A DNA stretch of 64,000 bases, taken from positions 62,001-126,000 of the forward strand of contig NZ_CALMYP010000052.1 in NCBI RefSeq assembly GCF_937873615.1. Direction: 5' to 3'. The translations under genes and the position numbers were made by a program. This DNA is from an uncultured Paracoccus sp. Its GTDB lineage: Bacteria > Pseudomonadota > Alphaproteobacteria > Rhodobacterales > Rhodobacteraceae. Positions within the stretch are counted from its first letter, which is position 1. Each line of letters opens with the position of its first letter. Under the pieces are notes generated by a model. The model was not told the DNA's origin. It saw only the letters and a program-made list of their open reading frames with translations, and made no database searches. This document shows, one piece after another, positions 7,936 through 21,840 of the stretch.

Positions 7936-8000
7936 ATGAGTGAATACGGACCGGGACCTGGTTCGGATTGGCTCAGGCTGGCTGTTTGGGGGAGAATGCA

Positions 8001-9956
<1,956 letters not shown>

Positions 9957-10162: not shown

Positions 10163-10471
10163 ATGGAACCGTCCCTCGCAGAGCGCATCTCTGCAAATCC
10201 GGACTACCAGAAACTCAAGGCCAGCCGCTCCAGTTTCGGCTGGAAGCTGACCCTCGCCATGCTGGTGGTCTATTACGGCTATATCCTGATGATCGCCTTC
10301 AACAAGGAACTGCTGGCGCATCGCATTGGCGAGAATGTCATGACCTGGGGGATCCCGATCGGCTTCGGCGTGATCCTGTTCACCATCGCGATTACCGCCA
10401 TCTATGTCCGTCGCGCCAACAGCGAATTCGACGAACTGACCGAAAAGGTCCGCCGGGAGACCCTGAAATGA
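10163..10471 (+). CDS. DUF485 membrane protein, small partner of ActP
   Basis: This 102-residue protein has two transmembrane segments (about 28-48 and 61-82) and the DUF485 opening pattern [18 protein letters not shown]. Members, such as YjcH of E. coli, are encoded immediately before the acetate permease ActP. The stop overlaps the actP ATG by ATGA, which supports stoichiometric co-expression. The protein probably assists or assembles with the symporter, but its biochemical role is not established. An AG-rich ribosome site (GAGGA) lies 11 nt before the ATG. Confidence 0.9.
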
Positions 10472-12183
10472 GCCGCGTCCTGACCCGCATCGCGGCGGCT
10501 GCCGCAACCCTGGCGCTGCCGGGCATGGCGCTTGCCGCCGATGTCATCGAGGCCGGCGAGAAGCAGGCCACGAACTGGACCGCGATCATCATGTTCGCGG
10601 GCTTCGTGGTGATGACCCTCTTCATCACCAAATGGGCTGCCGCCAAGACCAAGTCGGCCGCGGATTTCTATACCGCCGGCGGCGGCATCACCGGCTTCCA
10701 GAACGGGCTGGCGATTGCCGGTGACTATATGTCGGCGGCCTCGTTTCTGGGGATTTCGGCGGCGGTCATGGCCAATGGCTATGACGGGCTGATCTACTCC
10801 ATCGGCTTTCTGGTCGGCTGGCCGATCCTGACCTTCCTGATGGCCGAACGGCTGCGCAACCTCGGCAAGTTCACCTTCGCCGACGTGGCCGCCTTCCGCT
10901 TCGCCCAGGCCCCGGTGCGCATCTTCGCGGCCTCCGGCACGCTGGTCGTGGTCTGCTTCTACCTGATCGCGCAGATGGTCGGCGCGGGTTCGCTGATCGA
11001 GCTGCTGTTCGGTCTCGATTACTGGATCGCCGTCGTCATCGTCGGCGCGCTGATGATGATCTATGTCCTGTTCGGCGGCATGACCGCGACGACCTGGGTG
11101 CAGATCATCAAGGCCTGCCTGCTTCTGGGCGGCGCGACCTTCATGGCGCTGTCGGTGATGTGGAAATACGGCTTCTCGCCCGAGGCGCTGTTCGCCGATG
11201 CCGTCCGCGTCAAGGCCGAGGCCGCTGCCGCTGGCGGAGCCACGCCCGAGGATGCCGCCAAGGCCGGCCAGTCGATCATGGGACCGGGCAGCTTCATCAA
11301 GGACCCGATCTCGGCGATCAGCTTCGGCATGGCGCTGATGTTCGGCACCGCCGGCCTGCCGCATATCCTGATGCGCTTCTTCACCGTTCCCTCGGCGAAG
11401 GAAGCGCGCAAATCGGTGATGTGGGCGACCACCTGGATCGGTTACTTCTATCTGCTGACCTTCATCATCGGTTTCGGCGCCATCACCTTCGTGCTGACCA
11501 ACCCGGATTTCCTGGCCGCGGATGGCAAGCTGGTGGGCGGCAACAACATGGCCGCCGTGCATCTGGCGAAAGCCGTGGGTGGCAACGTCTTCCTGGGCTT
11601 CATCTCGGCGGTGGCCTTCGCGACCATCCTCGCGGTGGTGGCCGGGCTGACGCTTTCGGGCGCTTCGGCGGTCAGCCACGACCTCTATGCGACGGTCATC
11701 AAGAAGGGCAAGGCCGACAGTCTGGCGGAGCTGCGCATGTCGCGCATCACCGTGCTGTGCCTCGGCGCCATCGCCGTGGTGCTGGGCATCGCCTTCAAGA
11801 ACCAGAATATCGCCTTCATGGTGTCGCTGGCCTTCGCGGTCGCGGCCTCGGCCAACTTCCCGGTGCTGTTCATGTCGGTGCTGTGGAAGGACTGCACCAC
11901 CAAGGGGGCCGTCACAGGGGGCTTCCTGGGGCTGGTCTCCTCGGTGGTGCTGACGATCCTGTCGCCTTCGGTCTGGGAGGCCACGCTTGGCAACCCGGCC
12001 GGTTCGGCACCTTTCCCCTATACCTCGCCCGCGCTCTTCTCGATGACGCTGGCCTTTCTGGGGATTTGGCTGGTGTCGAAGATCGACAATGGCGAGCGCG
12101 CGCGTATCGACCGGGCCGGGTTCCTGGCCCAGCAGGTGCGCTCGGAAACCGGCATCGGTGCCTCTTCGGCCTCGGCGCATTGA
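10468..12183 (+). CDS. actP: Cation/acetate symporter
   Basis: This 571-residue sodium:solute symporter has a cleavable-looking N-terminal signal ending [10 protein letters not shown], as seen in ActP, and then about 13 transmembrane segments. Family landmarks include [22 protein letters not shown] and YMSAASFLG in the first core repeat and [17 protein letters not shown] in the middle. It imports acetate and other short monocarboxylates with Na+. Together with Acs it forms the uptake and activation route. A hydrophilic Ala/Glu-rich loop lies at about residues 245-275. Confidence 0.94.
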
Positions 12184-12395: not shown

Positions 12396-12653
12396 ATGAG
12401 TGACAAGACATCATCAAACGCCTACTGGGCGGCGAATGTGCGGATCATCTGGATCTGCATCGCCATCTGGGCGCTGGTATCCTACGGCTTCGGGATCATC
12501 CTGCGCCCGCTTCTCAGCGGCATCAAGATCGGCGGCTCGGATCTGGGTTTCTGGTTCGCGCAACAGGGGTCGATCCTGGTCTTCATCGTGCTGATCTTCG
12601 GCTATGCCTGGCGCATGAACAGCCTCGATCGCGAACACGGCGTGGAGGAATGA
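12396..12653 (+). CDS. DUF4212 small subunit of a sodium/substrate symporter
   Basis: This 85-residue protein has two transmembrane segments. The N-terminal pattern AYWAANVRIIWICIAIW and the C-terminal YAWRMNSLDRE are typical of DUF4212 proteins, which always precede a VC_2705-type symporter. GGGAGG upstream sets the ATG at 12396. The stop is 1 bp before the symporter ATG, so the pair is almost certainly co-translated. It is the structural counterpart of DUF485 for the second transporter. The 212-bp gap before it shows no ORF or clear regulator site. Confidence 0.9.
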   Translation: MSDKTSSNAYWAANVRIIWICIAIWALVSYGFGIILRPLLSGIKIGGSDLGFWFAQQGSILVFIVLIFGYAWRMNSLDREHGVEE

Positions 12654-12654
12654 G

Positions 12655-14466
12655 ATGAGCCAATTTGCTCTTAACCTGATCTTCATCGGCATCAGCTTCG
12701 CGATCTATATCGGGATCGCCATCTGGGCCCGTGCCGGCTCGACCGCCGAATTCTATGCGGCCAACCGTGGCGTCAGCCCGGTCATGAACGGCATGGCGAC
12801 TGCCGCCGACTGGATGTCGGCGGCCAGCTTCATCTCGATGGCGGGTCTGATCGCCTTCACCGGCTATGACAACTCGACCTATCTGATGGGCTGGACCGGC
12901 GGCTATGTGCTGCTGGCGCTGCTGCTGGCGCCTTACCTGCGCAAGTTCGGCAAGTTCACCGTGCCCGAGTTCATCGGCGACCGCTTCTATTCGCGCACCG
13001 CGCGGATCATCGGCGTGGTCTGCCTGCTGATCATCTCGATCACCTATGTGATCGGCCAGATGACCGGCGTGGGCGTCACCTTCTCGCGCTATCTGGAAGT
13101 GTCGAACTCGACCGGTCTGTGGATCGGTGCGGCGCTTGTCTTCTGCTACGCCGTTCTCGGCGGGATGAAGGGCATCACCTATACGCAGGTGGCGCAATAT
13201 GTGGTGCTGATCATCGCCTATACGATCCCGGCGGTCTTCATTGCCATGCAACTGACCGGTCATGTCCTGCCGCAGACCGGGCTCTTCGGCTCGCTCGCCG
13301 GGGGGGATACCAAGTTCCTGACCAAGCTCGACCAGGTGGTGACCGATCTCGGCTTCGCCAACTATACCGGCCATCACAAGTCGACGCTGGACATGGTGCT
13401 GTTCACCCTGGCGCTGATGATCGGCACCGCGGGTCTGCCGCATGTCATCATCCGCTTCTTCACCGTGCCGAAGGTTTCGGACGCGCGGTCCTCGGCGGGC
13501 TGGGCGCTTGTCTTCATCGCGCTGCTTTACACCGTCGCCCCGGCGGTCGGTGCGATGTCGCGCTTCAACCTGACCGCGACCATGTGGCCGGGTGCCGTGG
13601 AAGGCGAGACCTACAGCCAGCCGGCAGTGTCGCTCGACGCGATCCAGAACTCGCCCGAGCTGCAATGGATGCGCAACTGGCAGACCACCGGTCTGCTGGC
13701 CTGGGAAGACAAGAACGGCGACGGCCTGATCCAGTACTATAACGATAAGGCCGAACCCGGCGAGGCGCTTGCCGCCGTCATCGCCGAGCAGAACCTGCAG
13801 GGCAACGAGTTGCCGACCGTGAACAACGACATCATGGTTCTGGCCAACCCGGAAATCGCCAACCTGCCGGGCTGGGTCATCGCCATCGTGGCTGCGGGCG
13901 GTCTGGCCGCGGCGCTGTCGACGGCGGCGGGTCTGCTGCTGGCCATTTCGGGCGCTGTGTCGCACGATCTGGTCAAGGGCTGGCTGGCCCCCGAGATCAG
14001 CGAGAAGGGCGAACTCATGGCCGCCCGCGTCTCGATGGCGGTCTCGATCCTGGTCGCGACCATCCTCGGGCTGCATCCGCCGGGCTTTGCGGCGCAGACC
14101 GTGGCGCTTGCCTTCGGTCTGGCGGCGTCCTCGATCTTCCCGGTGCTGATGATGGGGATCTTCTCGACCCGCATCAACAAGCAGGGTGCGATCTGGGGGA
14201 TGATCGCCGGTATCGCCTCGACGCTGCTCTATATCTTCACCTACAAGGGCTGGCTCTTCATTGCCGGCACCAACATGCTTGAAGATACCGCCGCGAACTG
14301 GCTGTTCGGCATCTCGCCGGCCTCGTTCGGGACTATTGGCGCGCTGATCAACTTCATCGTTGCCTATGTGGTGTCGAATGCGACCGAGGAACTGCCCGCC
14401 GAGGTGGTCGAACTGGTCGAATCGATCCGCGTTCCGCGCGGCGCCGGCGCTGCCGTCGACCACTGA
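12655..14466 (+). CDS. Sodium:solute symporter, VC_2705 subfamily (probable acetate/monocarboxylate)
   Basis: This 603-residue polytopic transporter is paralogous to ActP but lacks a signal peptide. Core motifs are STAEFYAANRGVSPVMNGMA, DWMSAASFIS and MIGTAGLPHVIIRFFTV. Between transmembrane segments there is a hydrophilic insertion (about residues 318-395) that includes DKNGDGLIQYY, which has EF-hand-like spacing. The neighbours suggest acetate or a related short acid as substrate, but this is an inference. A strong intrinsic terminator follows 11 bp after the stop. Confidence 0.9.
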   Translation: MSQFALNLIFIGISFAIYIGIAIWARAGSTAEFYAANRGVSPVMNGMATAADWMSAASFISMAGLIAFTGYDNSTYLMGWTGGYVLLALLLAPYLRKFGKFTVPEFIGDRFYSRTARIIGVVCLLIISITYVIGQMTGVGVTFSRYLEVSNSTGLWIGAALVFCYAVLGGMKGITYTQVAQYVVLIIAYTIPAVFIAMQLTGHVLPQTGLFGSLAGGDTKFLTKLDQVVTDLGFANYTGHHKSTLDMVLFTLALMIGTAGLPHVIIRFFTVPKVSDARSSAGWALVFIALLYTVAPAVGAMSRFNLTATMWPGAVEGETYSQPAVSLDAIQNSPELQWMRNWQTTGLLAWEDKNGDGLIQYYNDKAEPGEALAAVIAEQNLQGNELPTVNNDIMVLANPEIANLPGWVIAIVAAGGLAAALSTAAGLLLAISGAVSHDLVKGWLAPEISEKGELMAARVSMAVSILVATILGLHPPGFAAQTVALAFGLAASSIFPVLMMGIFSTRINKQGAIWGMIAGIASTLLYIFTYKGWLFIAGTNMLEDTAANWLFGISPASFGTIGALINFIVAYVVSNATEELPAEVVELVESIRVPRGAGAAVDH

Positions 14467-14546: not shown

Positions 14547-16361
14547 ATGGATGACATCCTGAAATTCATCGCCAGCGTGCACCCCTATGATTCCTTGCCC
14601 CGGGACGAACTGTCCCGCGTGGCCGCAGTTTTTGTCGCCCGCGACTGGGCCGAGGGCGCCAAGGTCTACCGCGCCGGCGAGACGCTGGACGGGCTTTACC
14701 TGATCGAGGGTGCCTCGGTCGAAATCACCGATCCGAACGGCGAGCTGGTCTCGATCCTCGGACGCGCCAATTCCTTCGGCGAGCGTGGCCTGCTGAGCGA
14801 CGGGCTTGCCGCCACCACCGCCACCGTATCCGGGGCCGGCAGGATCCTGATGCTGCCCGCTGCGGAGTTCCAGCGCCTGCTGGGCGAAAGCCCCGCCTTT
14901 TCCCGTTTCTTCACCCGTGGCCGGCCGGTGCCGGCGCGGGGCGGCACGGATGTGGCGACGCTGAAAGTCGCGGACCTGCTGTCGCGCGAGCCGCTGGCAA
15001 CCGGACCCGAGACCACGATTGCCGAGGCCGCGCAGATGATGCGCGCGGCCCATGTCTCCTCGCTCGGGATCGTCGAGGATGGCGGCCGGCTTCTCGGCAT
15101 CGTCACCATCCGCGACATGTCGAACCGCGTCGTCGCCGAGGGGCGCGATACATCCGCCCCTGTGACAACGATCATGACCGCCGATCCGGCCTCGCTGCCG
15201 TCCGAGGCTTTGGGCTCCGACGTGCTGAACGCCATGGTCGAGCGTCGGGTCGGCCATCTGCCGGTGATCGACGGCGGCCGTTTCGTCGGCATGATTACCC
15301 AGACCGACCTGATGCGGGCACAGGCGATCTCGTCTTCGGTGCTGATCCGCGATGTGGCCGGTGCGCAGGTCCCGGCGGATCTGGCGCAGGTGACCGCCCG
15401 CATTCCCGACCTGCTGGTCAATCTCGTCGCCGCCAATCACCGCCACGAGGTGGTGACGCGGCTGATCACCGACATTGCCGATGCCGTGACCCGCCGCCTG
15501 CTGACCATGGCCGAGGAAACGCTTGGCCCGGCGCCGGCGCCCTATCTCTGGGCGGCCTGCGGCAGTCAGGGGCGGCAGGACCAGACCGGCGTATCGGATC
15601 AGGACAATATCCTGATCCTCGCCGACGGGATCGATCCGAATGATCCCTATTTCGAGAAACTCGCCCGTTTCGTCAGCGACGGGCTGAACGCGGCGGGCTA
15701 TGTCTATTGCCCCGGCGACATGATGGCGACCAACCCGCTCTGGCGGCAGCCGCGCAAGGTCTGGTCCGGCTATTTCCAGGACTGGATCGACCGGCCCTCG
15801 CCCGAGGCGCAGATGCTGGCTTCGGTCATGTTCGACCTGCGCGCCATCGGCGGCGATGCCTCGCTGCTGGCCGGGCTGCAGGCCGAGACCCTGGCCCTGG
15901 CCTCGCGCAACTCGATCTTCGTGGCCCATATGATCGCCAATTCGCTGAAGCATCACCCGCCGCTGGGGCTGATCCGGGGTTTCGCGACGATCCGTTCCGG
16001 CGAACATCAGGGCCATATCGACATGAAGATGAACGGCGTCGTGCCGGTGGCCGACATGGCCCGGGTCTATGCGCTGCGCGGGCGGCTTCTGCCGGTCAAT
16101 ACCCGCGCCCGGCTGGAAAATGCCGAGGATGCCGGGATCATCTCGGGCAAGGGTGCGCGCGATCTGATCGCCGCCTATGACCTGATCCAGACATTGCGGC
16201 TGGAACATCAGGCGGCGAGGATCAAGGCCGGGCAGCGGCCGGACAATTTCCTGCAACCGGCCGATCTGCCGGATTTCGAACGCAGCCATCTGCGCGACGC
16301 CTTCGTCGTCGTGCGCACCATGCAATCCGCTCTGGGACAGGGAAAAGGGGCCCTTTCATGA
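14547..16361 (+). CDS. cNMP-binding / CBS pair / DUF294 nucleotidyltransferase-like protein
   Basis: This 604-residue cytoplasmic protein has four modules. A cyclic-nucleotide-binding fold covers about 10-125 (IEGASVEITD, then SFGERGLLSDG). Two CBS motifs lie at about 145-255 (VKVADLLS...GIVTIRDM and VTTIMTADP...GMITQTDLM). A DUF294 nucleotidyltransferase-like core begins near 330, with GSQGRQDQTGVSDQDN carrying the GS...D-x-D pattern. A DUF294 C-terminal domain ends the protein. It resembles GlnD-like signal-protein modifying enzymes. The target is unknown, but the position after acetate transporters suggests a cyclic-nucleotide/adenylate-gated regulatory role. CGAGG precedes the ATG. The stop overlaps the next ATG. 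Confidence 0.88.
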   Translation: MDDILKFIASVHPYDSLPRDELSRVAAVFVARDWAEGAKVYRAGETLDGLYLIEGASVEITDPNGELVSILGRANSFGERGLLSDGLAATTATVSGAGRILMLPAAEFQRLLGESPAFSRFFTRGRPVPARGGTDVATLKVADLLSREPLATGPETTIAEAAQMMRAAHVSSLGIVEDGGRLLGIVTIRDMSNRVVAEGRDTSAPVTTIMTADPASLPSEALGSDVLNAMVERRVGHLPVIDGGRFVGMITQTDLMRAQAISSSVLIRDVAGAQVPADLAQVTARIPDLLVNLVAANHRHEVVTRLITDIADAVTRRLLTMAEETLGPAPAPYLWAACGSQGRQDQTGVSDQDNILILADGIDPNDPYFEKLARFVSDGLNAAGYVYCPGDMMATNPLWRQPRKVWSGYFQDWIDRPSPEAQMLASVMFDLRAIGGDASLLAGLQAETLALASRNSIFVAHMIANSLKHHPPLGLIRGFATIRSGEHQGHIDMKMNGVVPVADMARVYALRGRLLPVNTRARLENAEDAGIISGKGARDLIAAYDLIQTLRLEHQAARIKAGQRPDNFLQPADLPDFERSHLRDAFVVVRTMQSALGQGKGALS

Positions 16362-16864
16362 ATGAACTTTCCGGCCTTGGCGCCGATCTTCTGGGCACCT
16401 TCGCGGTCGCCATCGGGGCGGCGGCGCTGCTTTACGCGCTCGGTCACGCGGCGAAGCGGGCCGGGCGGCCACTGCCGCGTTGGGTGCTGCCGGTGGGGAT
16501 CGGGCTGTCGATGATCGGTTATGCGACCTGGAACGAATACAGCTGGGCCTCTCGCGTCAAGGACCAGCTTCCCGACCGGGTCGAGGTGATCGCCGAAGGT
16601 CAGGTGCAAAGCCCGCTGCGGCCCTGGACCTATCTGGTCGCGCCGACCCTGCGTCTGGCGCTGATCGACCCGGCGGCGCTGCGCGAGGCCGATGCCGAGG
16701 GCGCGCAGATCGTGCCGGTCACGCTGGTCCAACGCTGGAAGCGAAGCGTCACGGTCGAGCAGGGGATCAACTGCACCACCGGAGAGACCCGCCCGCCGGG
16801 CGCGGACTGGCAGCAGGCGGCGTCGACCGACCCGGCCTTCGCGGCCATCTGTGCCGGAGGCTGA
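16358..16864 (+). CDS. Hypothetical membrane protein in the acetate block
   Basis: This 168-residue protein has two N-terminal hydrophobic segments (about 10-30 and 43-60), then a soluble domain with WNEYSWASRVKDQLP and a region rich in beta-prone residues that contains one Cys pair. I do not recognise a named domain. The ATG overlaps the DUF294 stop by ATGA, so it belongs to the same unit and probably acts with that protein or with the sensor protein downstream. Its soluble part is predicted to face the periplasm only if the helices form a hairpin, which cannot be decided here. Confidence 0.75.
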   Translation: MNELSGLGADLLGTFAVAIGAAALLYALGHAAKRAGRPLPRWVLPVGIGLSMIGYATWNEYSWASRVKDQLPDRVEVIAEGQVQSPLRPWTYLVAPTLRLALIDPAALREADAEGAQIVPVTLVQRWKRSVTVEQGINCTTGETRPPGADWQQAASTDPAFAAICAGG

Positions 16865-16920: not shown

Positions 16921-17292
16921 ATGGCCCGGATCACGGTCATCGAGGACGAGGACAATATCGCCGCCGCGCTGGATTTTCTGCTGACGCGCGACGGGCATGA
17001 CCATGACCGCCTGGCGACCGGCGCCGGCGCGGTCGAGGCATTGCGGGCGGGGCATCCCGATCTGGTGCTGCTGGATGTGATGCTGCCCGAGGTCTCGGGT
17101 TACCAGATCGTGCAGGACCTGCGCGCCGATCCCGAATTGCGCGATATCCGGGTGCTGATGATGACCGCGCGCGGCTCGGTCGTCGAGCGGCGCAAGGGCA
17201 TGATGCTGGGCGCAGATGGTTTCATCGCCAAGCCTTTCGAACTGGCGGAACTGCGCGCCGAAATGGCCCGCGTGCTGGGGGAACGGCCATGA
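16921..17292 (+). CDS. Stand-alone response-regulator receiver domain
   Basis: This 123-residue CheY-like protein has all receiver residues: the acidic pair in VIEDEDN, the phospho-acceptor Asp in LLDVMLPEVSG (about residue 52), the T-A pair in MMTARG and the KPF lysine near 103. There is no output domain. GGGAGGAAAG precedes the ATG at 16921. The stop overlaps the start of the sensor/exonuclease gene by 4 bp. A receiver next to a sensor-like partner suggests a two-component pair whose output would be protein-protein interaction rather than DNA binding. Confidence 0.9.
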   Translation: MARITVIEDEDNIAAALDFLLTRDGHDHDRLATGAGAVEALRAGHPDLVLLDVMLPEVSGYQIVQDLRADPELRDIRVLMMTARGSVVERRKGMMLGADGFIAKPFELAELRAEMARVLGERP

Positions 17293-19283
17293 TCGGGCGG
17301 CTTTCCCTGCGGATGCGGATCTTCCTGATCTTTGCCGGGCTGGCAGCCGGGTTGCTGGCGCTGACCGGGGCCGGACTTCTGGTCGCGGCTTCGGTGCTGA
17401 GCGGGGCGCCAGCGACGGATCAGGGCCAGCCGGGCGGCGTGACCGATGCCTTGGCACTGGCGGGGCTGATCGCGGGTCTCGGTGGGCTCGGGCTGGTGGC
17501 CTGGGTCTGGTTTCTGTTCGACACCCATGTCGGGCGCGCGATCGAAACCCTGGCCGGCAGCCTGCTGACCGGGGCCACACCGGATGCGGGGCAGGGCCGT
17601 TACCTGGCCGATCTGGCCCCCGCCGTGCGCGCCGCAGCACAAGCGCAGGCCCGTGCCCGGAAAGACCTGGAGACGGCGCTTGCCGCCCATGCCGAGGCCG
17701 AGGCGCGCGAGAAGGCGCTGCTGGAAAAGATCCTGTCGGATATCGGCGCCGGCGCGATTCTGGCCGGGCCCGAGGGGCGGGTGCTGTTCTACAACACCGC
17801 CGCCGGGCAGTTGCTGCCGGGGCTGGGCCTCGACCGCGAATTGGCGCGCTTCCTGCGCCCCGGCGGGCTTGAGGCCGCGCAGGCGCGTCTGGATGCCGGG
17901 GCCGATGCGACCGATGTGGCGCTGATCGGTGTCGATGGTTCCCGGCTTTCGGGCCGGTTGCGCCGCCTTCAGGACGAGGCCGGCGGCACCGTCCTGATCC
18001 TGCGCCCGGCGCAGCGCGAACTGACCCCGCCGCGCGCCCCGGTCGAGGCGCTGCGCCGTCACGCCGCGACCCTGACCCCGCTTCTCGACGATCTCGAAAC
18101 GCCCTTGCCCGCACCGCTGGTCGAGGTGATCCGCACCGAGGGCCGGGCGCTGTCGGCGGCGCTGTTCGAGCTTGAGACCGCGCTGACCCCGCCCGCCCCG
18201 CGACAGCGCCGGGTGGCTGCCGAGGAACTGGCGCGCGGCCTTGGCCTGCCACTTGCCGAGGTGGCGCCGCTGACGCTTGCCGCCGATGGCTGGCAGATCG
18301 GCGGGCTTCTGACCCTGCTCGGCGCCCGGCTGGAAGGGTCGGGGCGCGCGCCGACGGCAGCGATCCTCAGCGCTGATGTCAGCGAGGCGCAGGTGCTGCT
18401 CAGCTGGACCGGCCCGGCCCTGCCCATGGACCAGCTGGACCGCTGGCTGCTTGACGCCCCCGATCCCGACCACCCCGAGATGAGCGGGGCCGCCATCCTC
18501 GCCTCGCATGGCACCGGGATCTGGCCGGAACAGGCGGGTGATGCGGGGCAGTTGGTGCTGCCGCTGACGGTCTCGCCCATCGCGCGCGAGGCGCGCCCGG
18601 CGGTGACCTATGACTTCGCCCTGGCCACACGCGGCGCCCCCGATACGCGACCCTTGAACGCGCTGACCTGCGTCGTCTTCGATACCGAGACCACCGGCCT
18701 CGCCCTGTCCGACCGGATCGTGCAGATCGCCGGCCTGCGCATTGCCGGCGGCCGTCTGACCGGCGAGCAGTTCGACATGCTGGTCAATCCGGGCCGGCCG
18801 ATCCCGCCCTCATCGACCGAGATTCACGGCATCACCGACGAGATGGTGCGGGGCGCCCCCGATGTCACCACGGCGCTGCGCGGCTTTCACCATTTCGCCG
18901 AGGGCGCGGTGCTGATCGCCCATAATGCGCCCTTCGACATGGGATTGCTGCGTGCGGCCGAGGGCGAGACCGGGCAGCATTTCTCGAACCGGGTCATGGA
19001 TACGGTGCTGCTTTCTGCGATGATCTGGGGGCAGGCCGAGACCCACAGCCTCGATGCGATCTGCGAGCGGCTGGAGATCACCATCCCCGAGGGGCTGCGC
19101 CATACCGCCATGGGCGATACCGAGGCCACCGCGCAGGCCTTCCTGAAGATGCTGCCGGCGCTGGAGGCGAAGGGGATCACCCGTTTCGAACATGTCCTGA
19201 GCCAGGCGCAGAAATACCGCCGCCTGCTGGGCGATGCGAATCTGGACAGCATCCAGCGCACGGCCCAGCCGGCAAGGGCTTGA
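17289..19283 (+). CDS. Membrane sensor-like protein fused to a DEDDh 3'-5' exonuclease
   Basis: This 664-residue protein joins two halves. The N-terminal half has two transmembrane helices (about 9-33 and 55-78), a coiled-coil linker, a PAS-like stretch (ILSDIGAGAILAGPEG, about 150-200), and then a helical and alpha/beta region. That region looks like a degenerate histidine-kinase DHp/ATPase core without a canonical H-E-x-R-T-P box. The C-terminal half (from about 458) is a DnaQ-type exonuclease: FDTETTG (Exo I), AHNAPFDMGLL (Exo II) and HTAMGDTEAT (Exo III with His and Asp), so all DEDDh residues are present. It overlaps the receiver gene by 4 bp. How a membrane sensor controls a nuclease is unknown. 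Confidence 0.85.
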   Translation: MIGRLSLRMRIFLIFAGLAAGLLALTGAGLLVAASVLSGAPATDQGQPGGVTDALALAGLIAGLGGLGLVAWVWFLFDTHVGRAIETLAGSLLTGATPDAGQGRYLADLAPAVRAAAQAQARARKDLETALAAHAEAEAREKALLEKILSDIGAGAILAGPEGRVLFYNTAAGQLLPGLGLDRELARFLRPGGLEAAQARLDAGADATDVALIGVDGSRLSGRLRRLQDEAGGTVLILRPAQRELTPPRAPVEALRRHAATLTPLLDDLETPLPAPLVEVIRTEGRALSAALFELETALTPPAPRQRRVAAEELARGLGLPLAEVAPLTLAADGWQIGGLLTLLGARLEGSGRAPTAAILSADVSEAQVLLSWTGPALPMDQLDRWLLDAPDPDHPEMSGAAILASHGTGIWPEQAGDAGQLVLPLTVSPIAREARPAVTYDFALATRGAPDTRPLNALTCVVFDTETTGLALSDRIVQIAGLRIAGGRLTGEQFDMLVNPGRPIPPSSTEIHGITDEMVRGAPDVTTALRGFHHFAEGAVLIAHNAPFDMGLLRAAEGETGQHFSNRVMDTVLLSAMIWGQAETHSLDAICERLEITIPEGLRHTAMGDTEATAQAFLKMLPALEAKGITRFEHVLSQAQKYRRLLGDANLDSIQRTAQPARA

Positions 19284-19311: not shown

Positions 19312-20130
19312 CTAGCGGCCCAGCTTGGCGTGAACCTCTTCCAGATCGACCTCGTCCCGGGGCATCTTGTTGTCGGGGTCGTCGAAATCATAGCGGAACA
19401 GCTGGAAGTCCCGCTTGTACATTTCCCAGACCAGGTGCCGTGACAGGTCGTCGAAATACTCGCTGACCTTATGGGCGCGCTTTGGGCCATGCCCTTCGGA
19501 TTCGTTGAAACGCGGCACCGCTTCGACATCGACCTTTACCGGCGTCTCGACTGCGTCGAGGACCTTCTGGATGCCTTCGTTGAACTTCTCGGTGAAGAAG
19601 ATCTGGTCGTAATGGCCGCCATTGTTGATGAAGGTCGAGATATGGCCCGACATGGCCGACCAGTGGATGTCCGGGTCCATCGGCCTGCGCCAGCGGATGG
19701 TGTCGCGCGCGAACAGCAGGAAGCGGCGGAAGGACTTGATCTGGTCGAAGTCGAAATCGTCTTCGGGGCTGCCGACCTCGATTCCGTATTTCTGGATCAG
19801 TTGCGGCACCAGATTGCCGCGATAACGCTTTCCGTTGCGCTGGATACCGGCGATCTTGTCGAAGAAGGACGACAGAATCCGCGCATAGGGGTTGCGCACG
19901 CAGGTGAAGCTGACGCCACGCCCGGCAAGAACCGCCTCCTCGATGGATTTCTGGCTGTCATCCAGCCCCCATTTGTGCAGCCCTTCGTTTGCATCGTGAA
20001 TATCGCCGTCGAAATAGCGGCCATGGTCGGAATAAAACATGATCTGCCCGATCGTCGAGCAGGCGCATTTCGGCACAACCCGATAGACCAGACTTTCGCT
20101 TTCGGTCATCCAGACGCCGGGAAAACCCAT
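19312..20130 (-). CDS. Sulfotransferase family 2 (PAPS-dependent carbohydrate sulfotransferase-like)
   Basis: This 272-residue protein has a 5'-phosphosulfate-binding motif, VPKCACSTIG, near residue 20 and a 3'-phosphate-binding motif, CVRNPYARILSSF, near residue 85. Both are hallmarks of eukaryote-like carbohydrate sulfotransferases. It would transfer sulfate from PAPS to a surface glycan. The start at 20130 is preceded by GAAGAAGGA on the minus strand, and the longer in-frame ORF beyond it has no similarity. It is divergent from the GT14/DUF5928 gene, which suggests that the two act on the same polysaccharide. Confidence 0.85.
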   Translation of the reverse strand: MGFPGVWMTESESLVYRVVPKCACSTIGQIMFYSDHGRYFDGDIHDANEGLHKWGLDDSQKSIEEAVLAGRGVSFTCVRNPYARILSSFFDKIAGIQRNGKRYRGNLVPQLIQKYGIEVGSPEDDFDFDQIKSFRRFLLFARDTIRWRRPMDPDIHWSAMSGHISTFINNGGHYDQIFFTEKFNEGIQKVLDAVETPVKVDVEAVPRFNESEGHGPKRAHKVSEYFDDLSRHLVWEMYKRDFQLFRYDFDDPDNKMPRDEVDLEEVHAKLGR

Positions 20131-20262
20131 TTCAAATCCTTCTTCGTGTCGTGGCGGGTTGCGGTACTCGCCAAAATTGTGGAGACAAAAGCAGATTGCC
20201 GCAGGATTATCAACGGGCCGCAGCCCCGTCCTGCATCTTGAACGGAGCTTCGTCGGAGCGTC

Positions 20263-21840
20263 ATGGCAAAGATTGCCTTCATCCTTTTGGCCCATAAGGA
20301 TCCCGAAGGTCTGATCGCCCAGGCCGAACGGCTGACCGCGACCGGCGATTGCGTGGCGATTCACTATGACGCGAGTTCAAGCCCGACCGACTTCAACCGT
20401 ATTCGCGCCGCACTGGGCAGCAACCCGAACGTGACCTTTGCGGTGCGGCGCCACAAATGTGGCTGGGGGGCATGGTCGCTCGTTCTGGCTTCGCTGGACG
20501 CGGTGCGCGCGGCGGCGGACAGCTTTCCGGCGGCAACGCATTTCTACATGCTCTCAGGCGATTGCATGCCGATCAAGTCGGCGGAATATGCGCGTGCGCT
20601 GCTGGATGCTGAGGATGTCGATTACATCGAGAGCTTCGACTTCTTCACCTCGGACTGGATCAAGACCGGGATGAAGGAGGATCGGCTGATCTATCGCCAC
20701 TGGTTCAACGAGCGGAGCCAGCCGAGGCGGTTCTATCTCAGCTATGAGTTCCAGAAGCGGTTTCGGCTGACCCGCAAGATCCCCGAAGACCTGCAGATGA
20801 TGATCGGCAGCCAATGGTGGTGCCTGCGCCGGGACACCATCGAAAAGGTGCTGAGGTTCTGCCGCACCCGCCGCGATGTGATGCGCTTCTTCTCGACCAC
20901 CTGGATCCCGGACGAAACCTTCTTTCAGACCGTCGTCCGCCATGTCGTGCCGCGCGACCAGATCCGCACGCGTACGCTGACCTATCTGATTTTCACCGAT
21001 TACGGGATGCCGGTTGTCTTCTGTAACGATCATTACGACATGCTGCTCAGGCAGGACTATCTGTTTGCCCGCAAGATCAGCGCCGAGGCCGAGGATCTGA
21101 GGGCTCGTCTCGGTGCGCTCTGGCAGGCAGAGGGGCTGCATTTCGCCATTTCGGGCGAGGGCAAGCCGCTGTTTCGCTATCTGACCGGGCGCGGGCGGAT
21201 CGGACAGCGTTTTGCGCCGCGCTTCTGGGAAACGGAAGCGACGCTCGGTCGGCAAAGCGTGCTGCTGATGATCGTGGCCAAGAAATGGCATGTGGCCAAG
21301 CGCCTGACCGCCGCTATTCGGCGTCATACCGACATTCCGGCGGTCGATTACCTGTTCAACGAACGCGATGCCGGGCTGCCGGACCTTGGCGGTGCCGAAA
21401 CCTCGGTTGCCAAGCGCGAACGCCATCGCCGGGCGCTGATCCGGATATTGATGACCGAATTCGACGATTCGCGCCTCGTCATCTGCATCGACCCCTCGGC
21501 TTTCTACCTGATAAACGATCTGGCCGGCGACAAGGCCGAGGCACGGGTCCTGCTGATCGAGACCGATTTCGATGACGATTATCTGCGCGGGCATCTCGGT
21601 CGGGTCGGGTTGGCCAACGCCTCGACCCCGCCCGAGGTTCTTGACCGGCTGTTGCCAGCGGTGCGCGGCGACCTTCTGCAGGAGGCCGAGCGCCTGCGCG
21701 AAACAAACCTCGTTGGCCTGACCGAGATCAGTGCCGAAGCCGGCCTGGCGCGAAATTCCCGCGCCATTGCCGATTTCCTGGATATTGACGAGGATAGCGC
21801 CGGCATGATCGCCTCCACCCCGAACTTCTTCGATGATTGA
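20263..21840 (+). CDS. GT14 (core-2/I-branching) glycosyltransferase with DUF5928 C-terminal domain
   Basis: This 525-residue protein has a GT14 N-terminal domain: FILLAHKDPEG, IHYDASSSPTDF, CGWGAWSLVLASLDA, YMLSGDCMPIKS and QWWCLRR, ending with TWIPDETFFQTV. GT14 enzymes add a branching sugar (GlcNAc or xylose) to a glycan. The C-terminal 200 residues match the DUF5928 domain I recall from Rhodobacteraceae, which has no known function. AACGGAGC precedes the ATG. The neighbouring sulfotransferase suggests building of a branched, sulfated extracellular polysaccharide. Confidence 0.85.
   Translation: MAKIAFILLAHKDPEGLIAQAERLTATGDCVAIHYDASSSPTDFNRIRAALGSNPNVTFAVRRHKCGWGAWSLVLASLDAVRAAADSFPAATHFYMLSGDCMPIKSAEYARALLDAEDVDYIESFDFFTSDWIKTGMKEDRLIYRHWFNERSQPRRFYLSYEFQKRFRLTRKIPEDLQMMIGSQWWCLRRDTIEKVLRFCRTRRDVMRFFSTTWIPDETFFQTVVRHVVPRDQIRTRTLTYLIFTDYGMPVVFCNDHYDMLLRQDYLFARKISAEAEDLRARLGALWQAEGLHFAISGEGKPLFRYLTGRGRIGQRFAPRFWETEATLGRQSVLLMIVAKKWHVAKRLTAAIRRHTDIPAVDYLFNERDAGLPDLGGAETSVAKRERHRRALIRILMTEFDDSRLVICIDPSAFYLINDLAGDKAEARVLLIETDFDDDYLRGHLGRVGLANASTPPEVLDRLLPAVRGDLLQEAERLRETNLVGLTEISAEAGLARNSRAIADFLDIDEDSAGMIASTPNFFDD

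Follow-up and report, generated by a model that had tools for sequence, protein, structure and literature searches.

Organisation and conservation of the locus

The window, a 64,000-nucleotide stretch from the 3.86 Mb genome of an uncultured Paracoccus sp., carries an acetate uptake block followed by a receiver-only gene and a gene for a 664-aa fusion protein, which is the last gene of the acs/ActP/DUF4212-symporter/DUF294 block. The features are as follows.

7968..9956, + strand: acetyl-CoA synthetase (acs), longest open frame; ACAS_N, AMP-binding and AMP-binding_C matches
10163..10471, + strand: DUF485 protein (PF04341, 117.7 bits)
10468..12183, + strand: ActP cation/acetate symporter (PRK09395, 940.8 bits, cut-off 750)
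12396..12653, + strand: DUF4212 small symporter partner (PF13937, 116.6 bits)
12655..14466, + strand: VC_2705-family sodium/solute symporter (TIGR03648, 805 bits)
14547..16361, + strand: cNMP-binding/CBS/DUF294 nucleotidyltransferase-like protein (Pfam; GSxGR...DxD motif at residue 339)
16358..16864, + strand: TM168, a conserved 168-aa membrane protein (DUF4131 match below cut-off)
16921..17292, + strand: single-domain response regulator, receiver only, 123 aa (PF00072, 83.9 bits)
17289..19283, + strand: fusion TM-PAS-pseudo(DHp-CA)-DEDDh exonuclease, 664 aa (open reading frame, Pfam, alignment, AlphaFold2 model)
17289..17738, + strand: two TM helices and signalling helix of the fusion, residues ~1-150 (model helices 7-39, 48-94 and 100-150)
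17739..18008, + strand: PAS-like domain of the fusion, residues ~151-240
18033..18185, + strand: pseudo-DHp hairpin of the fusion, residues ~249-299 (Glu at the phospho-His column, Arg at H+3)
18198..18578, + strand: pseudo-CA domain of the fusion, residues ~304-430
18654..19163, + strand: DEDDh exonuclease domain of the fusion, residues ~456-625

The true start of acs is probably further inside its frame. The receiver and fusion frames overlap by 4 nt, as do the DUF294 and TM168 genes, and DUF294, TM168, receiver and fusion form an operon-like run in that order. The original prediction had placed a receiver gene overlapping the start of a 664-residue protein after a set of acetate uptake genes; the open reading frames confirmed the overlap, and profile matches identified every member of the set. 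No symporter-type kinase gene was found within the block. Among named genomes, the closest match to the fusion is in a Paracoccus sp. MAG, at 76% identity. A search of the open-licence PMC literature returned no published description of the fusion or the module, in agreement with the earlier view of the fusion as uncharacterised, and none of the nuclease terms was present in PMC5436829.

Among 30 loci of named genomes, the order symporter-DUF294-TM168-receiver-fusion recurred as far as each contig extends. A receiver adjoined the fusion in 27 of the 30; it was missing in L028 (Rhizobium) and L029 (Hyphomicrobiaceae), and L026 ends at a contig edge. Within the family, 111 of 248 genomes had a DUF294 gene, and the 110 loci other than the window's own were fetched. 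A symporter was present upstream in 108 of these, TM168 in 108 and acs upstream in 96, with less than 3.1 kb of upstream sequence available in 9 of the 14 loci where acs was missed. These frequencies rule out an accidental adjacency to acetate genes, and the suggestion that the linkage is conserved held both in the named genomes and across the family. All 110 family DUF294 proteins matched the strict nucleotidyltransferase pattern, compared with 32 of 60 others.

Domain structure of the fusion and its receiver

Response_reg was the sole Pfam family above cut-off in the receiver (cut-off 30.2 bits), which has the acid pair, phospho-Asp, Thr and Lys of a single-domain response regulator and no DNA-binding or other output domain in Pfam. 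Among aligned receivers the phospho-Asp and Lys were kept in 40/40 and the Thr/Ser in 39/40; only four of the receivers from module B, the kinase-linked version described below, passed the pattern used for this alignment.

In the fusion, RNase_T matched residues 462-618 with 114.8 bits (cut-off 24), and D465, E467, D550, H605 and D610, the DEDDh residues, were invariant in a 27-row alignment. The DxE, D and H-x4-D motifs and the fold are those of a DEDDh 3'-5' exonuclease, which bears out the complete DnaQ-type exonuclease proposed originally. The fusion shares this fold and its catalytic residues with DnaQ, PolC and RNase T, and differs from them by its N-terminal membrane/PAS/pseudokinase control unit; from its sequence it is predicted to be a membrane-anchored nuclease. 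The PAS-like region gave a PAS_4 match of 17.5 bits, under the cut-off of 23.1, while PAS families were detected in other members, PAS_4 in 18 of 27.

In an AlphaFold2 model of the fusion (mean pLDDT 79.6, pTM 0.40), a pair of helices at the N-terminus is followed by a PAS-like domain, a two-helix segment, an alpha/beta portion and finally the nuclease. Foldseek searches with the whole model matched PolC/DnaQ exonucleases and also PAS/LOV histidine kinases over 320-370 columns (e.g. 4gcz, E 4.2e-9), the latter with low TM-scores because the domain arrangement differs. Since the structure matches of the whole model were filled by the nuclease, the core between PAS and nuclease was modelled separately. 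It had a DHp hairpin and a CA fold; the CA part superposed well on kinases, and the whole DHp-CA poorly, with an rmsd of about 13-20 Å. When aligned by hhalign to five intact symporter-type kinases, the core matched at 97.1% (E 7.5e-11, 204 columns). The degenerate kinase-like core that had been proposed is thus a DHp-CA unit by both fold and profile homology. Pfam found neither HisKA nor HATPase_c in the window protein, and neither is in the family lists of 27 aligned members.

The core is a pseudokinase, with a CA fold and a DHp-like hairpin, degenerate ATP motifs and no phospho-His. This was seen in an alignment of 74 rows to the five kinases, comprising 42 window-type rows and 32 module-B rows (the latter including L234, and L235 and L236, which have no DHp). 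The phospho-accepting His of the H-box was present in 0/74 rows; its column held Asp or Glu in 63/74, with Asp 28, Glu 9, Ala 3 and Gly 2 in the window-type rows, and Glu 23, Asp 3 and others 6 in the module-B rows. The window protein has Glu there, and its own core is without the H-box Pro. The Asp of the G1 box was replaced by Trp in 72/74 rows (40/42 window-type, 32/32 module-B) and the F-box column was a gap in all 74. The N-box Asn residues were mostly replaced: as far as the lists of commonest letters show, the first was not among them, and the second was kept in 3/32 module-B rows. Some glycines persist, the first of G1 in 73/74 rows and one of G2 in 43/74. The Arg three residues after the phospho-His position (H+3) was kept in 39/42 window-type and 28/32 module-B rows. 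A core without the phospho-His and without key residues of the ATP site is unlikely to be the receiver's kinase, and the best reading is that the fusion is instead a reader of the receiver. Of the two-component-like pair originally envisaged, the covariation of receiver and core described next supports the pairing, and the residues of the core argue against phosphotransfer from it.

Joint loss of receiver and core

Of the 110 family loci, L075 (at a contig end) and L145 (a distant DUF294 paralogue) had no nuclease and were dropped, leaving 108. A receiver was present in 39 of these, and all 39 keep the core, with a PAS-to-nuclease linker of 213-245 aa. The other 69 have no receiver, and scanning their gaps in six frames with an HMM revealed none. 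Their linker was short in 60 (≤23 aa where measurable; L112 was classed by its 460-aa frame), 149-199 aa in seven and more than 205 aa in two. Thus the core was absent from 60 of the 69, DHp helix 1 was truncated in 8, and the remaining one was without the usual docking Arg. The H-box segment was truncated in all seven mid-length proteins, L129 nonetheless retaining an Arg at a comparable place. One of the two long proteins, L142, was truncated as well, and the other, L079, carries Gly where the Arg is expected; this pair was judged damaged only after both had appeared as exceptions. Since TM-PAS coding sequence that has been retained lies between the receiver gene and the core, a single deletion cannot explain the co-loss. 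The nuclease is found without receiver or core in 60 of the 108 family loci, so control through them would be dispensable there.

On the DUF294 tree, the receiver state changed at least 9 times and the long-linker state at least 8 times. A tree of PAS plus nuclease, with the core excluded, required at least 6 changes of the receiver and 5 of the long linker, and here L059 and L092, which have no receiver and a short linker, were nested in a receiver-positive clade. These two therefore look like losses in place, and for them a horizontal swap of the whole receiver-fusion block is an unlikely cause of the co-loss. Block swaps may have occurred at other loci, the DUF294 and nuclease trees differing in places, the window included.

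The search was extended with the fusion of L155 as query against 349 genomes of the phylum, of which 47 matched at E ≤1e-45. The receiver adjoined the fusion in 28 of 30 fetched loci (weakly in L234). The exceptions, L235 and L236, belong to a distant clade and have neither a receiver nor the two pseudo-DHp helices, with the rest of the protein kept. These loci include module B, in which an intact symporter-type histidine kinase lies beside the receiver and fusion; in other clades and on Paracoccus plasmids the receiver-fusion pair has both such a kinase and DUF294 as neighbours. Module B was found in Paracoccus methylovorus p1, in P. denitrificans PD1222 plasmid 1 (PDEN_RS25395-25415, by annotation, with the kinase at RS25405 and the receiver at RS25410) and in Cupriavidus necator N-1 pBB1, where actP, DUF294 and an acs-like gene accompany it. 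The window-type operon is present in PD1222 too, on the same plasmid (PDEN_RS22665-22695, with DUF294 at RS22680, the receiver at RS22690 and the fusion at RS22695). The P. methylovorus kinase matched HisKA (73.4 bits) and HATPase_c (103 bits), and SSF at 19.6 bits, under the Pfam cut-off of 22.8. A module-B kinase was present in 28 of 35 genomes with such a fusion (adjoining in 20, on another contig in 7, and as a partial paralogue only in G630) and was found in none of the other seven. Among the 30 genomes with fetched loci, it was present in 24 of 28 with a receiver and 0 of 2 without; these two, the L235 and L236 genomes (97% and 75% complete), had no module-B kinase at E ≤1e-60.

A candidate mode of nuclease control

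We favour, as a probable reading, that the DEDDh exonuclease is anchored in the membrane and is under the control of a pseudo-histidine-kinase, which senses whether the adjacent receiver is phosphorylated. The receiver would be charged by acetyl phosphate or by a histidine kinase of symporter type (SLC5-like), a separate protein whose gene is linked in many relatives. The phosphorylated receiver would then dock on the pseudo-DHp helices, where, with Asp or Glu in place of His, no phosphate would be passed on, and would switch the exonuclease, by activation or inhibition, through the PAS-DHp-CA unit. The target may belong to the physiology of acetate/pyruvate uptake; probable candidates are RNA and a product of the DUF294 partner.

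The closest precedent is DivL of Caulobacter. According to passages of PMC4211667, the PAS-DHp-CA pseudokinase DivL uses the usual docking face to bind DivK~P; its R553A substitution (Y550+3) disrupts DivK~P binding, and alphaproteobacteria without DivK frequently are without the DHp-CA of DivL. The present pair resembles this system, as those passages describe it, in its PAS-DHp-CA unit without phospho-His, its single-domain receiver partner, the Arg at H+3 and the co-loss, with L029 as a counter-example and with tree tests that were not significant. It differs in that DivL has Tyr at the His position (Ala in one species) and acts in cell-cycle signalling, whereas the fusion has Asp or Glu and a DEDDh nuclease. 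From the absent His, the retained Arg and the co-loss, as in DivL, we infer that the phosphorylated receiver docks on the pseudo-DHp.

It is quite possible, if short of probable, that the nuclease has an ordinary part in RNA decay and tunes the mRNAs of transporters or of the TCA cycle, with the signalling part setting its amount or place only. Its DEDDh fold is close to RNase T and PolC/DnaQ, and a putative exonuclease of P. putida has been discussed in these terms. PP_0354 and PP_0353 of P. putida, a CBS protein and a putative exonuclease of the RNase_T family, form a two-gene operon under MxtR/ErdR, which the relevant passages of PMC9927547 tie to acetate/pyruvate transport, with homologues beside actP-yjcH in P. 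aeruginosa PAO1. There, deletion of PP_0353 impaired growth on pyruvate but left growth on acetate and on succinate unimpaired; a role in mRNA decay is the authors' speculation. For PP_0353 those passages give an RNase_T match alone, with no kinase-like part and no receiver, unlike the window fusion. A P. fluorescens mutant of pflu5625, a cAMP/CBS/nucleotidyltransferase protein, had no phenotype as reported in a section of PMC5715377. The proposed acetate link is real at the level of synteny, but the one exonuclease mutant found in the literature searched, that of the DUF294-linked PP_0353, had its growth defect on pyruvate and none on acetate.

Against RNA decay stands the tight DUF294 pairing, which it leaves unexplained even where no symporter is near, and an RNA substrate is itself putative. 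The pairing was surveyed in 60 loci, one per genome, chosen by hand for spread and match length from 95 matching non-family genomes. A DEDDh gene lay within 6 kb of DUF294 in 53 of the 60 and immediately downstream (same strand, open frame starting -1100 to +300 nt from the DUF294 end) in 49, which agrees with the DnaQ-like genes beside DUF294 named in the original prediction. The DEDDh proteins inspected were mostly stand-alone, of roughly 225-300 aa. A symporter was present in the region in 33 of the chosen loci, and no symporter hit was found in the region for 22 of the 49 immediate pairs; the DUF294-DEDDh bond is therefore broader than the acetate link.

We regard it as doubtful that the core is a mere dimerisation scaffold or evolutionary remnant, with the receiver acting elsewhere and the two genes just co-regulated. 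Such a view fits the 60 family loci that do without core and receiver, and L029, a 5-kb contig on which helix 1 keeps its Arg with no receiver beside the fusion; a direct receiver-core interaction is, moreover, proposed from sequence. The tests of independent pairs also leave room for it. On supported branches of the DUF294 tree, five pairs differed in receiver; the core followed in 3, went the opposite way in 0 and did not differ in 2 (p 0.25). An enlarged set of 138 rows held 66 loci with both, 0 with receiver only, 2 with core only (L079 and L142, coded as core-positive by linker length) and 70 with neither, and gave 2.9 independent pairs for and 0.0 against (p 0.25). In this set the module-B receiver states were taken from the locus survey, and L231, L239 and L240 (YDF pattern not found), the duplicates L155 and L201, and L234 (DHp scrambled, probably by frameshifts; receiver match 2e-19) were omitted. 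The co-loss pattern thus appears strong but not statistically closed, the tree tests agreeing in direction at low power. What argues against a remnant is that two non-adjacent pieces vanish jointly in the family, L059 and L092 being nested among receiver-positive relatives, and again in the distant clade of L235 and L236, and that the H-box Arg is kept while the catalytic residues are not.

It also seems rather unlikely that the window-type receiver is charged by acetyl phosphate instead of a kinase, so that the nuclease would report acetate flux directly. The window-type operon has no kinase and adjoins acetate genes, and an acetate kinase gene is present in the window's genome, so acetyl phosphate is possible as phosphodonor. 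On the other side, module B has a linked kinase, and the window's genome contains an unlinked symporter-type kinase on contig C67, the only one found, with 37-39% identity to module-B kinases. Kinases of the C67 type failed as cognates by co-occurrence, because 76 of 80 family genomes have one, with or without the receiver. With its weak SSF match, the module-B kinase is similar to CrbS of CrbS/CrbR (MxtR/ErdR), a system in which an SLC5-domain histidine kinase acts in acetate regulation and, in a section of PMC5715377, CrbR activates transcription. The window block has no SLC5-domain kinase, and its regulator is a receiver alone, with no DNA-binding output domain.

A more speculative version of nuclease control, which we consider distinctly improbable, is that DUF294 writes and the DEDDh protein erases a single reversible nucleotidylyl modification, the eraser being set by the two-component system through the pseudokinase. 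The cNMP/CBS-regulated nucleotidyltransferase would attach an NMP to a symporter subunit, a regulator or an RNA end, and the DEDDh enzyme would hydrolyse the resulting phosphodiester. The idea is chemically plausible because an oligoribonuclease of the DEDDh type acts on pNP-TMP, an aryl nucleotide ester, and cleaves it, as stated in part of PMC6390093, and pNP-TMP may be seen as a chemical likeness of nucleotidylylated tyrosine. Finally, an active, atypical histidine kinase phosphorylating the receiver, for which the DHp-CA fold, the neighbouring receiver and the residual G1 and G2 glycines could be cited, is rejected on the H-box and ATP-site residues of the 74-row alignment and disfavoured by the separate intact kinase that accompanies the pair in relatives, and we hold it to be extremely improbable.

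Two-component systems mostly exert their output through DNA binding, through enzymes of cyclic dinucleotides or through protein docking. If the reading of the fusion as a receiver-controlled exonuclease is true, the path from symporter-type kinase through a bare receiver and a dead kinase to a nuclease would be a new kind of two-component output. It would also extend to another case the DivL principle, by which a kinase is turned into a receptor for its response regulator. A one-residue prediction follows, at the Arg at H+3 of the pseudo-DHp, and the poorly understood DUF294 and DEDDh pair, often beside acetate/pyruvate transporters, would become testable in the tractable Paracoccus denitrificans PD1222.

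Genes in and beside the acetate block

In the window, acs and the DUF4212-symporter pair are separated by DUF485-actP (10163-12183). In P. denitrificans PD1222, DUF4212 and the symporter follow directly after acs. The 168-aa membrane protein of the block was found at 108 of the 110 family loci (which were fetched by their DUF294 gene), a constancy almost equal to that of DUF294 itself. The two genes downstream of the fusion are perhaps surface polysaccharide genes.

16358-16864, + strand: 168-aa membrane protein, with a DUF4131 match below the cut-off
19312-20364, - strand: Sulfotransfer_2 protein, just 3' of the fusion and overlapping the next gene
20263-21840, + strand: Branch/DUF5928 glycosyltransferase-like protein, overlapping the Sulfotransfer_2 gene

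Residue variants in the nuclease and receiver

When the DUF294-linked DEDDh proteins of loci L147-L206 were aligned, the third catalytic column was Glu in 29 of 56 rows and Asp in 27, reflecting either misalignment or a true site variant. At locus L066, the receiver adjoining a full-length fusion has partly lost its acid pair and has lost the Thr. This receiver may work without phosphorylation.

Placement of the fusion and distribution within the genus

In a tree of the PAS and nuclease regions, the window fusion (17289-19283) lies on a long branch together with loci L138-L143, whereas in the DUF294 tree the window DUF294 clusters with L036 and its kin. This difference in placement may come from rapid evolution, or the fusion may have been transferred.

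G164, a congener of the window genome, carries both the kinase and the fusion of module B (G164 C15:91363-96595), and a search of the G164 genome gave no match to the window-type DUF294 gene, indicating that the two versions are patchily distributed inside one genus.
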